DNA from: Candidatus Tanganyikabacteria bacterium
GTDB taxonomy: Bacteria > Cyanobacteriota > Sericytochromatia > S15B-MN24 > VGJW01
Length of the DNA: 64,000 bases
Direction of reading: 5' to 3'
Assembly: GCA_016867265.1 (NCBI GenBank)
Contig: VGJW01000011.1
Span: forward strand, 1-64,000
The position numbers were made by a program, and so were the translations under genes. The notes beneath the pieces were generated by a model. The model saw nothing but the letters and a program-made list of their open reading frames with translations. It made no database searches and was not told the DNA's origin. This document shows positions 1,812 to 44,112 of the stretch, one piece after another. Within the stretch, counting starts at the first letter, position 1, and the number at the start of each line of letters is the position of its first letter.

Positions 1812-1883
1812 GCAACCATCCTACAGGGCAAGCCAGGATGTGGGTGATATCGGCCCCTCGTATGGGGGAGCGCTGAAGGTACA

Positions 1884-2897
1884 ATGACCAACATGGCCCC
1901 ATCTGGATGGACCCGCCGGGTCATCGACGCGAGCATCAAGTTCGTTGCGGCCGGCCTGTGCATGGTCCCGACAGGTTGCGTGACCCCCAGGATCGATCCC
2001 GTGGCAGGGTCTCGCATCCTGACTAACACCCTGCTGCCCGGTCCAGTCAGGCAACTCTGGGGTGTCCCGGGCGGCATCCCTCACACGCTCCTTCCGCTGG
2101 GCAGCAAGTACGTGGCCATGGGCACCCGGGAAGGCAGGATTGTCCTGTTCACGCGAGAGACAGGTGCCGTCGGAAATCAGTGGCTTCTGGAGCAGCCTCT
2201 GATCGCCCTCCTGCCCGTGGGTTCGGAACGTCAGCAGATGGTTGCCATCGCCGAGGATGGTACCGTCGTCCAGCTGTCTCCGGGTGAGCCTGACCCGCTG
2301 GTTTCCATGGCGACCGGCCTTACGGTGACCCACGCCGGGCTTTGGCTGGGCGACGACACCCTCTGGCTGCGCCATGACGACCAAGTCAGCCTGCTGGACC
2401 TCAAGACCTCCAAGTTGATACCGGCTCCGGAAAGTGGTCCGTGGTCGCGTTCGGCAGTTAGCCCAGATGGCACCCGTCTCCTGCTTTCGCGCGAGGATGG
2501 CCCACCTGCCATGTGGACACAGGTTGAGGACAATGCCTGGAGCGGCGAACCCGTTCCCTACGAAGTACCTTTCGAGGTCCTGCCCGCTTGGGCTCCCGAC
2601 GGCAAAAGCTGGCTTCTGGCGGGGGCAGGCCGAGTGTGGATTGAGCGTTCGGGAACGCAATCGACCATGGTCGACTTCGAGACAGAGGTCGCCTCCCCGC
2701 AGTCGGTCGCGTGGCTGCCCAGGGAAAAAACCGTCGGCATCGCCGGTTCGGGAACGCTGGCGTTGCAAAGCATCTGGTCCGGCAAGACCTTGCATCGATG
2801 GCAGGGCCGGGGAGAGCCCGTCTGGGCGCCGTCGAACAGCGACGTCCTCCATGCGCTCACCCCCGGATCCGTCGCCCTGTGTGACGCAGGTGCCTAG
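1884..2897 (+). CDS. Propeller-like predicted lipoprotein
   Basis: 337 residues. After a positively charged start and a hydrophobic segment there is a cysteine in the context MVPTGC (about residue 32), consistent with a lipoprotein signal. The body shows repeated beta-propeller blade signatures (SPDGTRLLL, APDGKSWLL, IAEDGTVVQL, LLDLKTSKL), similar to WD40/TolB-like repeats. It is probably an envelope-anchored beta-propeller with a scaffolding role rather than an enzyme. The ATG has AAGG 4 bases upstream. It converges with the frameshifted lipoprotein gene with only 13 bases between stops. Confidence 0.65.
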   Translation: MTNMAPSGWTRRVIDASIKFVAAGLCMVPTGCVTPRIDPVAGSRILTNTLLPGPVRQLWGVPGGIPHTLLPLGSKYVAMGTREGRIVLFTRETGAVGNQWLLEQPLIALLPVGSERQQMVAIAEDGTVVQLSPGEPDPLVSMATGLTVTHAGLWLGDDTLWLRHDDQVSLLDLKTSKLIPAPESGPWSRSAVSPDGTRLLLSREDGPPAMWTQVEDNAWSGEPVPYEVPFEVLPAWAPDGKSWLLAGAGRVWIERSGTQSTMVDFETEVASPQSVAWLPREKTVGIAGSGTLALQSIWSGKTLHRWQGRGEPVWAPSNSDVLHALTPGSVALCDAGA

Positions 2898-5994: not shown

Positions 5995-6779
5995 GCCTGG
6001 CCACCCTTCAGGTAGTAGACGACGGGCTCGGTGCCCAGTGCCTCGAGGAGACGGAAACGCCGGGCAGATGCGATGGCCGTGGAGACCTTGCTATGGGGAT
6101 CGAGCAGGTTGCCGAAAGTGATGACGTTGGCCGAGCAGCTCTGGGCGCAGGCCGTCGTGATTTCGCCGTCCTCGAGCAGTCGCTCTTCGGCCTTGGCATC
6201 GGCGGCCGCCTCACGGATGCGATGCACGCAGAAGGTACACTTCTCCATGACGCCACGCGAACGGACCGTGACATCCGGGTTCAGCTGGTTGGCGAGAGGC
6301 TCCACGAAGTTGAGCGCCGCCTCGAACCAATTGAAGAACCGGACGTTGTAGGGGTCGTTGTTCTGACAGTACTGGGTCCCGATGCAACGGTTGTAGACCA
6401 TCCCGTTCAGGCCTTCCGGCGTATGGTAGGTCGCGAAGACGGGACACACGGGCTCGCAGGGCGCATTCGTACAGTGCTGGCACATCACGGGTACGAAGTG
6501 CGCCGTGACCTCGGGGTAGTGCCCCTCCCAATAACGCTCGACCCGCATCCAGTCGACCGAGCGCCCCTCATCCGTATCGATGGGACCCGCGATCGGCAGG
6601 TTATTCTCGGCATGGCAGGCCACCACGCAGGCACCACACCCTGTACAACGGTCAAGATCGACCGACATACCCCAGCGATAAGGAGAACCGGCACCTGCAT
6701 AGGGCGCTGCCATCGCACCCTGGACGGCACCATGATCTGCCCCGTGGGCAGCTTCGTGAGTGGCGGTCATGAGATCGGC
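5991..6779 (-). CDS. actB2: Alternative complex III iron-sulfur subunit B2
   Basis: About 262 residues from the ATG at 6779 (MADLMTATHE), which overlaps the actB1 stop by 13 bases. It is a four-cluster ferredoxin-like protein. Cysteine groups in order are CTGCGACVVACH, CQHCTNAPCEPVC, CIGTQYC with CTFC, and CAQSC. In the complex these clusters (typically three [4Fe-4S] and one [3Fe-4S]) form the electron wire from the quinol site to the haems. In many organisms this domain is the C-terminal half of one ActB polypeptide; here it is a separate gene. A longer in-frame version starting at 7004 would lie entirely inside actB1 and is not needed. Confidence 0.9.
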   Translation of the reverse strand, partial: ADLMTATHEAAHGADHGAVQGAMAAPYAGAGSPYRWGMSVDLDRCTGCGACVVACHAENNLPIAGPIDTDEGRSVDWMRVERYWEGHYPEVTAHFVPVMCQHCTNAPCEPVCPVFATYHTPEGLNGMVYNRCIGTQYCQNNDPYNVRFFNWFEAALNFVEPLANQLNPDVTVRSRGVMEKCTFCVHRIREAAADAKAEERLLEDGEITTACAQSCSANVITFGNLLDPHSKVSTAIASARRFRLLEALGTEPVVYYLKGGQA

Positions 6780-9109
6780 CATACCTTGAACTCCTGCTCG
6801 ACGCGCGCGGGAACCGCGGGCGACTCCTGCGGCTGGATGCTCTTGGAAACGAGCACCAGACGCTTCGACTTCGCACCGGTCGGCGTCAGCGAGACGCGGA
6901 CCGAACCCCAAGCCAAGCCACCGGCAGCTTGCGCGGCCTTGGCACCCAGCAAGGCCCGGGCATCTTCGCCCCGACCCGGGTCCTTCTTCATCGTGGCTTC
7001 CCACGTACTGCCGCCCTCGACGCCGTCGTAACGCGTCCCGTTGCGACGGCTGAAGTTGATCGGCATACCGACGACATCCTCGGGAAGACCAGGGTAAGGA
7101 ACGACCCCCACCTTGACCTCGCCGTACAAACTCTTGACCACCACCTCGTCATACTGGGCAAGGCCCAGCTTGGCCATCGTGTGAGGGTTGACCTCGAGCC
7201 AGCCGCCCCACGCAGCAGCCGACATTGGGTCAGCCATCTCCTGCAGCCAAGGAAGATGTGCAGCTTGGCCCTCCCGGTACTTCATCGACTTGACGGGCTG
7301 AAGAACAAACGGAAAGTCCTGTTCGCCACCCTCGAACCGGGGGGCGGGAAGATCCGCTGCCGGCATCCGGGCCGCGAGGGGCGCCCCCTGCGCGGGCTTG
7401 TGGACACCACCGTTGCGCAACGCCTTCTTCCAGGCGCTCTGGGTGCCGGGCACCTGATTGTCACTGGCAATGCCGGCCCACCTCGCCTTGAAGTAAGCCT
7501 CGGCGGACGCAAACCCGAGATCCTTGCCGGCGGCCTTGGCAGCCGTGAGCAGTACATCCTCGGCCGAGCGCGTCTCGAAGAACGGCACCACCAAAGGCTG
7601 CATCAGCGTCGCGACAGACGAACCGGAACCGACGGAGGGCGTGGCGTCGCCCCAGCGCTCAAGGAAGGTGCTGTCCGGCAGGACGAGGGTCGCGTGAGCC
7701 GCCGTGTCATCCGGGACAGTCGCCATCGACACAACCTCGGGAACAGCCTTCAGGGCATCCTCGAGACCGGCATCTCCAGGCAGGGCCATGAACAGATCAA
7801 CGCCAGCAACGACGAGCGCCTTGACCTGACCGGCCTTCATGCGATCGACGAGCTTGACGAGCTCCTTGTACGAGATGGGGGCAGGCGGCGCCATGCCGGC
7901 GATCGGCGAAGGCGCAGCAGGCACGATGCCACCCTTGCGACCGACCATGCCCGCCGCGACATTGATGCCGTTGACCAGCGACAACGTCTCGACGGCATTG
8001 GTGTGGCCCAGTACCTCGCCACCCCCGAAAGCCACCTTGAGTTCGGTCGCGGCAACCCACCGCACGAACTTTTCAAGCCGCTCGACCGGCGCTCCGGTCT
8101 TCTCGTGTGCCTCGGCGACCGAGACACCCCCCTTGCCCATGGCGTGCAGCGCCAACTGGGCAATCACGCCATGCGTGCCAGGCCGCACCGGAATCCAGAG
8201 ATCAGCCACCGTTGCCGCTTCACCCATTCGGGTGCTTACGGCGACAAACAAGCCGCGAACCAACTCCCTGCCGCGGCGCATCTCGCCGAAGCCCCAATTA
8301 AACAACGTAGGTGCCGGGCCGGTCGTGAAGGGCTCTTCACCAAAGCAGATGGCCAACTCAGTGTTGGCCAAGTCGACATACGGCATGTCAGGTCGACCAT
8401 AGACAGCCTGGTTCGCCGCACGGACGGCCTCATAACCGAAGGGCTCGACGATGACGGGGGCCGGCGCACCGAAGGCCTTTGCGACTTGGGCGAACAACTG
8501 GTAGCGATGGCCGCGGACCTGAGGTCCAAGCACCACGACCGTGCCGGCGCCGGAGGCTGCAAGGACCCTGCCCAGGCGATCCGCAGCTTGCGCCCACAGG
8601 TCGGCTCCGAACTTGCGGGCCTCGGCAGCCTTGGCATCCGCCAACGCGAAATCGGGAGCAGCGAAGCTGGTCAGACCGACCTTGAAGTTCTCGGGCACGG
8701 TGGTGGGACGCTTCTTGGCCTTGAAGACGTCATCGAAAAGCATCTTCAGCTTCAGGTAATCCGGACTGACCTCTCCGGCCTTGACGCGCAAATCAGGCCC
8801 ACGGAAGCGATCGGGATGGTACTGGTGCTGCACCCCCGCCTGCCCCAGAGCGCACAGTCCGCCGTGGCTCAAGGGGTGGCCGTCGAGACCCTCCACTTTG
8901 ACCGACCGCCCCTCGATGATCCGGACGGACACTCCGCACCCGGCGGAGCACAAATCACACGTCGTTGCAAAGTGGTTACCCGTGCCGGGCTCAAGCGCGA
9001 TCGGGCGCTCGACGTAGGCTATGAGCTGGGAGCTGTAGTCTTCGCAGCCACCCAGGACCATAGCCGTCCCGGCCAGCCCCGAGAGCTTCAGGAATTCGCG
9101 GCGTTCCAT
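6767..9109 (-). CDS. actB1: Alternative complex III subunit B1, molybdopterin-oxidoreductase-like
   Basis: 780 residues. The N-terminus is a twin-arginine signal (RREFLK at 3-8) ending in LGGC with Cys22, so a Tat-exported lipoprotein is likely. The rest has the fold of molybdopterin oxidoreductases. Cysteines at about 51, 54, 58 and 86 have the spacing of the [4Fe-4S] site found in that superfamily; whether a cluster binds here cannot be told. ActB1 in known complexes carries no molybdenum. A GAGG ribosome site lies upstream, 16 bases after actA. It could be mistaken for a formate dehydrogenase or polysulfide reductase large chain, but the gene order identifies it. Confidence 0.9.
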   Translation of the reverse strand: MERREFLKLSGLAGTAMVLGGCEDYSSQLIAYVERPIALEPGTGNHFATTCDLCSAGCGVSVRIIEGRSVKVEGLDGHPLSHGGLCALGQAGVQHQYHPDRFRGPDLRVKAGEVSPDYLKLKMLFDDVFKAKKRPTTVPENFKVGLTSFAAPDFALADAKAAEARKFGADLWAQAADRLGRVLAASGAGTVVVLGPQVRGHRYQLFAQVAKAFGAPAPVIVEPFGYEAVRAANQAVYGRPDMPYVDLANTELAICFGEEPFTTGPAPTLFNWGFGEMRRGRELVRGLFVAVSTRMGEAATVADLWIPVRPGTHGVIAQLALHAMGKGGVSVAEAHEKTGAPVERLEKFVRWVAATELKVAFGGGEVLGHTNAVETLSLVNGINVAAGMVGRKGGIVPAAPSPIAGMAPPAPISYKELVKLVDRMKAGQVKALVVAGVDLFMALPGDAGLEDALKAVPEVVSMATVPDDTAAHATLVLPDSTFLERWGDATPSVGSGSSVATLMQPLVVPFFETRSAEDVLLTAAKAAGKDLGFASAEAYFKARWAGIASDNQVPGTQSAWKKALRNGGVHKPAQGAPLAARMPAADLPAPRFEGGEQDFPFVLQPVKSMKYREGQAAHLPWLQEMADPMSAAAWGGWLEVNPHTMAKLGLAQYDEVVVKSLYGEVKVGVVPYPGLPEDVVGMPINFSRRNGTRYDGVEGGSTWEATMKKDPGRGEDARALLGAKAAQAAGGLAWGSVRVSLTPTGAKSKRLVLVSKSIQPQESPAVPARVEQEFKVWPIS

Positions 9110-42404: not shown

Positions 42405-42415
42405 ATACTGCTGAG

Positions 42416-42489
42416 CGGGGTTGACGGGGCTCGAACCCGCGACCTCGGCCTTGACAGGGCCGCATTCTAACCAACTGAACTACAACCCC
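42416..42489 (-). tRNA. tRNA-Asp (anticodon GTC)
   Basis: A complete 74-nt cloverleaf. Acceptor GGGGTTG pairs with CAACCCC, D-arm GTTC/GAAT, anticodon stem CGGCC/GGCCG with loop CTGTCAA (GTC at 42455-42453), and the T-loop TTCGAGC. CCA is not encoded. It is 45 bases downstream of tRNA-Sec on the same strand. Confidence 0.95.
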
Positions 42490-42534
42490 AACAGGCTTAC
42501 CATGTTATCAAGGGGTGGTCCTGACTGTCAACGA

Positions 42535-42628
42535 CGGAGGCGTGTGGGAATCGAACCCACCTGGCCCGGTAAACCGGACCTGACACGGTTTTGAAGACCG
42601 CCGGGCCCACCAGGACCCTGTCGCCTCC
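42535..42628 (-). tRNA. selC: tRNA-Sec (selenocysteine, anticodon TCA)
   Basis: A 94-nt tRNA with loop CTTCAAA carrying the UCA anticodon (42594-42592). Diagnostic selenocysteine features are a 6-bp D-stem (GGGTCC/GGGCCC with a 4-base loop) and a long variable arm (GGTCCGG/CCGGGCC). The acceptor starts GGAGGCGA and ends CGCCTCC, with an A-A mismatch at the eighth pair. It reads UGA as selenocysteine with SelA and SelB; those genes are not in this window. Confidence 0.93.
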
Positions 42629-42816: not shown

Positions 42817-44112
42817 ATGCGCCGCTTCGCCACTGCCTCGCTCCTCGCCTCGTTGACCGCCACCGTCGTGGGCTGCGGCACCCATGTCACCGGCGCCACC
42901 CAAGCGCTGTCCGTGGGCGCCAGCCAGGGTCGTCTTTACACCAAGGGCGGGATGGCTCAGGTGCTCGTGAAGCGGGCGCCCGGCACCACGGCTGCGCTGA
43001 ACGTCGCCAACGTCGCGCTCCGCCCGATGGCCATCAGCGTCGGCATGGCCCAGCTAGGCTGGTCGATGGTGGGCGTCGCCCCCAGCCAGGTCAACACGGC
43101 TCTGAGCGCCCTTCGGCAGGACCGGTCCGTCTTGGCCGCCCAGCCCAATTTGCAGCGTAACCTCGTCAAGCCCGGCGTGGCGCCCGGCCTCGAGGCAGCC
43201 GGTCTTCCCGGTTTCGTGACGGCAGCCGCTCCCAATGATCCGCTGTTCGGTAAGCAGTACGCCCCGCAACTCGTCAAGGCTCCCGGGGCCTGGGGCTTCA
43301 CGACCGGCAAGGGCCAGACCATCGCCATCGTCGATACCGGCGTGGATACCGGCCACCCCGACTTGAAGGCCCACATGGTGCCCGGCTGGAACACCGTCGA
43401 CAACAGCGCCAACGACAAGGATGACTTCGGCCACGGCACGCACTGCGCCGGCATCGCCGCCGGTCTGACCAACAACAAGGTCGGCATCGCCGGAATTGCA
43501 CCGGATGCCAAGATCATGTCCGTCAAGGTCCTTGGCAGCGACGGGTCGGGCTCGGACGAGACTGTGGCGTCCGGCATCACCTGGGCCGCGGATCACGGCG
43601 CCACCGTCATCAGCCTCTCGCTCGGCGGCCCCGGCGAGTCCAAGGTCATGAACGATGCCGTCGACTACGCCATCCGCAAGGGCGCGGTCCTCGTCGCCGC
43701 GATGGGCAATGACGGAACCAACGAGAAGTCGTATCCCGCGGCTTGCCCGGGCGTCATCGCCGTCGGCGCCTCCGACAGCCAGGACAAGATTGCCGACTTC
43801 AGCCAGTGGGGTTCGTGGATCAGCGTGGCTGCCCCCGGCGTCAAGATCTTCGCCACGATGCCCACCTACAAGGTCGCGATGAGCGACTGGGGCTTCCCCA
43901 GGAACTACGCCAGCATGGATGGCACCTCGATGGCCTGCCCCGCTGCCGCCGGCGTCACGGCCCTGATCCGGGCCAGCCAGCCCAGTTTGGCCGTCGCTCA
44001 GGTCAAGGCTCGTCTCGAAGCCACCGCGGACAAGGTTCCCGCGCAGAACAACGCGCCGAACGAGTACTTCGGCAACGGTCGCGTCAACGCCCTCCGCGCC
44101 GTCCAGCGGTAA
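42817..44112 (+). CDS. Secreted subtilisin-like serine protease (S8)
   Basis: 431 residues. A signal ends at VVGC (Cys20). A prodomain of about 120 residues precedes the catalytic part: Asp173 in IVDTGVD, His206 in FGHGTHCAG, Asn298 in AAMGNDG and Ser371 in GTSMACP. It is thermitase/fervidolysin-like and probably acts at the outer surface, being lipid-anchored. It ends before a strong hairpin. Confidence 0.93.
   Translation: MRRFATASLLASLTATVVGCGTHVTGATQALSVGASQGRLYTKGGMAQVLVKRAPGTTAALNVANVALRPMAISVGMAQLGWSMVGVAPSQVNTALSALRQDRSVLAAQPNLQRNLVKPGVAPGLEAAGLPGFVTAAAPNDPLFGKQYAPQLVKAPGAWGFTTGKGQTIAIVDTGVDTGHPDLKAHMVPGWNTVDNSANDKDDFGHGTHCAGIAAGLTNNKVGIAGIAPDAKIMSVKVLGSDGSGSDETVASGITWAADHGATVISLSLGGPGESKVMNDAVDYAIRKGAVLVAAMGNDGTNEKSYPAACPGVIAVGASDSQDKIADFSQWGSWISVAAPGVKIFATMPTYKVAMSDWGFPRNYASMDGTSMACPAAAGVTALIRASQPSLAVAQVKARLEATADKVPAQNNAPNEYFGNGRVNALRAVQR

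Follow-up and report, generated by a model that had tools for sequence, protein, structure and literature searches.

The 64,000-nt stretch of DNA analysed here, which we call the window, carries a short gene with a UCA anticodon next to a tRNA-Asp gene (Table 1). This raises the question of whether the gene is a working selenocysteine (Sec) tRNA, selC, in Cyanobacteriota, since Cyanobacteria were counted in a 2022 review among the few lineages appearing to lack Sec (PMC9312934). We are highly confident that it is the functional selC of a complete bacterial Sec-decoding system. The supporting genes, UGA positions, hairpins of the SelD and UxxC genes and phyletic pattern were all computed from draft genomes.

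Table 1. Positions of the tRNA-Sec gene, its landmarks and its tRNA neighbour in the window.
Feature	Position	Strand	Evidence
tRNA-Sec gene (selC), 94 nt, anticodon UCA, G73, no encoded CCA	42535..42628	-	ARAGORN, Rfam RF01852, fold, alignment with 6 relatives
UCA anticodon of tRNA-Sec, reads UGA	42592..42594	-	ARAGORN position 35; sequence
A8 of tRNA-Sec, 5' half of eighth acceptor pair (A-A mismatch)	42621	-	sequence; invariant, 7 genomes
A, 3' partner in tRNA-Sec eighth acceptor pair (A-A mismatch)	42543	-	sequence; invariant, 7 genomes
tRNA-Asp (GUC; ARAGORN GTC), neighbour, outside Sec system	42415..42489	-	ARAGORN; Rfam RF00005, 69.6 bits

The locus is a genuine and ordinary-looking bacterial tRNA-Sec. 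The initial annotation had read it as a 94-nt tRNA-Sec beside a tRNA-Asp from its UCA anticodon, 6-bp D-stem and long variable arm, and ARAGORN, the Rfam model and the predicted fold all agree with that reading. The RF01852 match (42536-42628, minus strand) runs end to end over positions 1-91 of 91 with 69.3 bits (E 4.4e-12; gathering score 47), and the 94 nt folded alone reach -52.8 kcal/mol, with a z of -4.26 against shuffles, none of which equals it. The D-stem has 6 bp and a 4-nt loop in both the fold and the seven-genome consensus, while the fold gives an anticodon stem of 5 bp, a variable arm of 7 bp and a T-stem of 5 bp. The acceptor has seven paired bp, and by fold and alignment eight positions lie between the T-stem and G73, the eighth being an A-A mismatch; the gene accordingly shows, together with G73, the 8+5 acceptor/T-stem layout known for bacterial tRNA-Sec (PMC5330540). 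With the E. coli selC type it shares the UCA anticodon, the D-stem and loop dimensions, the long variable arm, the 13-layer acceptor and T stem, and G73, but it differs in the A-A eighth pair, which is fixed in its class, and in lacking an encoded CCA.

A serine-type tRNA that suppresses UGA, or a decayed tRNA, could be taken for tRNA-Sec from a UCA anticodon and a long arm, and both the A-A pair and the genuine tRNA-Ser genes of this genome, which reach 47 bits with RF01852, speak for such a misreading. We nevertheless regard it as very improbable: the gene scores 69.3 bits against 47 for tRNA-Ser and has the 6-bp D-stem with its 4-nt loop, the tRNA-Sec genes of seven genomes of the class retain 86% mean column identity with paired changes in the D, anticodon, variable and T stems, and tRNA-Sec co-occurs with selA and selD. 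The presence of SelA, SelB and a UGA-containing selD refutes this alternative for practical purposes. The tRNA-Sec gene was found as a single copy by the RF01852 search of the 2.85-Mb genome, the remaining matches typed with ARAGORN being Ser, Leu, Tyr and Trp tRNAs.

The A-A pair had been flagged in the initial annotation as unusual for a tRNA-Sec. The mismatch is present as described, but its rarity does not hold, since every one of the seven tRNA-Sec genes of the class has it and non-standard eighth pairs are common in other phyla. In a set of 23 tRNA-Sec genes from other bacteria, each located close to selA, eight have G-A as the eighth pair, all from Bacillota records, and a few more have other non-standard combinations, with a few assignments possibly shifted by a bulge. 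Because the pair is fixed in the class and non-standard eighth pairs occur elsewhere, A-A is a lineage feature at a position where such pairs are tolerated, and not a defect.

The surroundings of the gene offer some minor observations. The tRNA-Asp lies 45 nt downstream on the same strand (ARAGORN), and by eye the spacer (42503-42531, minus strand) contains TTGACA, a 17-nt spacing and ATAACA, which is promoter-like for the tRNA-Asp alone. The neighbourhood is partly kept in relative G002, where tRNA-Sec (L024, 1500-1594, minus strand) and tRNA-Asp (1850-1924, plus strand) lie within 260 nt of each other on opposite strands. In the window, a gene for a subtilase-family (S8) protease (42817-44112, plus strand) adjoins the tRNA pair.

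The initial annotation had reasoned that the genome must recode UGA through SelA and SelB despite the lack of such genes and of selenoproteins in the window; the absence of selA, selB and selD had been named beforehand as refuting evidence. None of the three lies in the window, as had been noted, and all three are present elsewhere in the genome, above their cut-offs: selA (TIGR00474, 531 bits, cut-off 268) and selB (TIGR00475, 325 bits, cut-off 242) on contig C25, overlapping by 4 nt, and selD (TIGR00476, 343 bits, cut-off 125) on contig C1. Genes with in-frame UGA also exist, so the recoding claim is borne out. SelB, of 618 aa, comprises the GTPase, the SelB beta-barrel and a C-terminal winged helix (PF09107), a domain that serves SECIS binding. 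A further SelB-like match on contig C18, next to tRNA-Tyr and tRNA-Thr, is probably EF-Tu and not a second SelB. The selenouridine synthase ybbB (TIGR03167) was not matched in this genome, and in 20 genomes searched no match rose above the cut-off, so a use of SelD for selenouridine is not indicated.

All four components of the known bacterial Sec-decoding trait (SelA, SelB, SelC and SelD) are therefore found above cut-offs, with selA and selB overlapping. The biochemical activities that we infer for them follow the established pathway. SerRS would load the tRNA-Sec with serine, SelA would convert Ser-tRNA to Sec-tRNA with selenophosphate supplied by SelD, and SelB would carry the Sec-tRNA to UGA codons that are followed by a SECIS hairpin; the predicted products would include SelD, a Bcp/PrxQ-like peroxiredoxin whose peroxidatic position holds Sec, and a UxxC redox protein related to SelL.

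The assembly, an estimated 98.2% complete, is still in draft form (41 contigs), with selC, selAB and selD placed on three contigs (C11, C25 and C1), so the Sec genes could in principle belong to contigs of another bacterium binned into the genome. We give this explanation very little credence. The assembly has an estimated contamination of 0.34%, selC lies on a contig of 98.7 kb, the same gene set recurs in six other assembled relatives, and in the SelA tree their proteins stand as a single clade, separate from every sampled phylum.

The selD gene is itself a selenoprotein gene in which Sec insertion is predicted from an in-frame UGA followed by a covarying SECIS-like hairpin; SelD is likewise a selenoprotein in many Sec users. 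The TGA occupies the active-site position (SGGUAAK) and is present in seven of eight class genomes, the eighth (G008) having TGC (Cys). At nt 30-46 from the TGA, the window's genome has the hairpin GTCCCAG-GTT-CTGGGAC. Among class genomes, its outer pairs vary with pairing kept (GC/UA, UA/AU/GC), most of the hairpins carry a CAGGU loop, and the hairpin is broken in the Cys-type gene of G008. The CAGGU loop resembles the SECIS loop of E. coli fdhF. In three relatives (G001, G002 and G004; L062, L064 and L065), a second strong hairpin, for example AAGATCGGCCCGGCCGATCTT, lies between the selD UGA and the SECIS-like hairpin.

Counting SelD, the genome encodes at least three predicted selenoproteins; they were sought by family searches and in single stretches, and the selenoproteome given here is a lower bound. 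When AhpC/TSA proteins were sought with stop codons allowed, in-frame TGAs turned up in the Sec-bearing genomes, the translated cases falling at the peroxidatic or redox Cys. Some 6 kb away from selB, the window's genome carries a Bcp/PrxQ-like peroxiredoxin ORF (C25:16648-17199; KAFTPGUEAEMK); on contig C4 it encodes a SelL-related UxxC protein (C4:79977-80333; FFRVFTUGHC). Like known selenoperoxiredoxins and SelL-related UxxC proteins, these candidates place UGA where the peroxidatic or redox Cys would be (AFTPGU; FTUGHC), and they have an AhpC/TSA domain and Cys homologues in relatives, but they differ in scoring under the curated PrxQ and SelL_rel cut-offs, and are for that reason described only as family-level relatives. 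In the UxxC family, a separate hairpin has AGUU as its loop, and four of its pairs show changes in both partners across four sequences, so that selD and the UxxC gene both combine a UGA at a Cys position with a covarying SECIS-like hairpin; for the peroxiredoxin, no convincing hairpin was found. Only one genome lacking Sec genes (G017) has an in-frame TGA in an AhpC/TSA gene, where it follows an intact redox Cys; this peroxiredoxin is not a selenoprotein.

The genome differs from the common bacterial pattern in having no detected formate dehydrogenase alpha subunit (FdhA), the most widespread bacterial selenoprotein; the matches, all below 26 bits, belonged to different proteins. Among these is a 780-aa protein of molybdopterin type in the window (6767-9109, minus strand), which has weak FdhA likeness and is not FdhA; it resembles QrcB, a menaquinone reductase subunit, below cut-off. 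A coding-potential scan of the window for UGA read-through gave nothing convincing, its one weak candidate being probably antisense, and the scan is insensitive, as it missed selD, whose upstream part is short.

How the trait came to this lineage depends on its distribution. A search for photosystem I PsaA/PsaB was positive for 10 of 39 genomes sampled from the phylum and for no member of the window's class (18 genomes, among them the window's own), a pattern from which we take the class to be non-photosynthetic and the phylum to be Cyanobacteriota. Another family of the phylum, f9, outside this class, also lacks PsaA; its genomes measure about 1.7-2.3 Mb, and we take it to represent Melainabacteria/Vampirovibrionia. 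By elimination, the Sec-bearing class is most likely Candidatus Sericytochromatia, which are non-photosynthetic relatives of Cyanobacteria (PMC8245535). Within it, tRNA-Sec (67-72 bits) and selA are confined to one shared set of seven genomes, from three families; true selD occurs in these seven and in G003, whereas tRNA-Sec, selA and selD are all absent from ten other members (families f2, f3, f6 and f7). G003, which is 64% complete, has a UGA-containing selD without selA or tRNA-Sec, probably owing to incompleteness. Across the phylum, selA was found in 7 of 386 sampled genomes, all seven in this class.

In the SelA tree, the seven proteins of the class group as a single clade (SH-aLRT 98), nested in no sampled phylum. 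Family f1 is recovered as a subclade at 98, and f4 groups with f5 and not with f1, so that taxonomic order is not quite matched. This single clade agrees with a single ancestral presence within the class and several later losses; the trait would have been held by the class ancestor among non-photosynthetic Cyanobacteriota and then lost from several families. The direction of gain and loss, like the class name, is our inference. The system could instead be real and yet have been gained by the class laterally from another phylum and not from the phylum's ancestor, as might be expected from its absence in most of the phylum and from the known lateral movement of Sec genes (PMC1794560). We treat lateral gain as possible, if somewhat doubtful, given the single SelA clade with its f1 subclade and the Sec-type SelD shared by three families, which make a recent transfer unlikely; an old transfer into the class ancestor may have occurred. 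The fuller scenario, in which Sec decoding was ancestral to the class and perhaps to the whole phylum and was lost toward the oxygenic Cyanobacteria, the class keeping a peroxiredoxin-rich selenoproteome without formate dehydrogenase, is conceivable, and we put it forward as a tentative and rather unlikely reading.

Neither the tRNA nor the enzymes nor the selenoprotein families are new in kind; what is new is the phyletic record of a textbook Sec system from a phylum where none was expected, and its interest is modest. Earlier surveys report some Prochlorococcus and Synechococcus that lack the Sec trait and carry selD, partly accompanied by ybbB (PMC1273633, PMC5029168), and the open literature that was searched yielded no paper on selenocysteine in Sericytochromatia. 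Finding the full system, predicted selenoproteins included, in a non-photosynthetic class of this phylum corrects the map of lineages thought to lack Sec, and makes it a testable question whether Sec was lost before oxygenic photosynthesis. It also carries a warning for annotation: in these genomes, the genes for SelD and peroxiredoxins will be recorded as broken at UGA. Relatives add to the set of predicted selenoproteins (L162, L163, L164, L165, L166 and L167), with a peroxiredoxin-like TPGUNRQLSEL, a thioredoxin-like ASWUGGC and the SelL-like HFGULFC and HFGUMFC.
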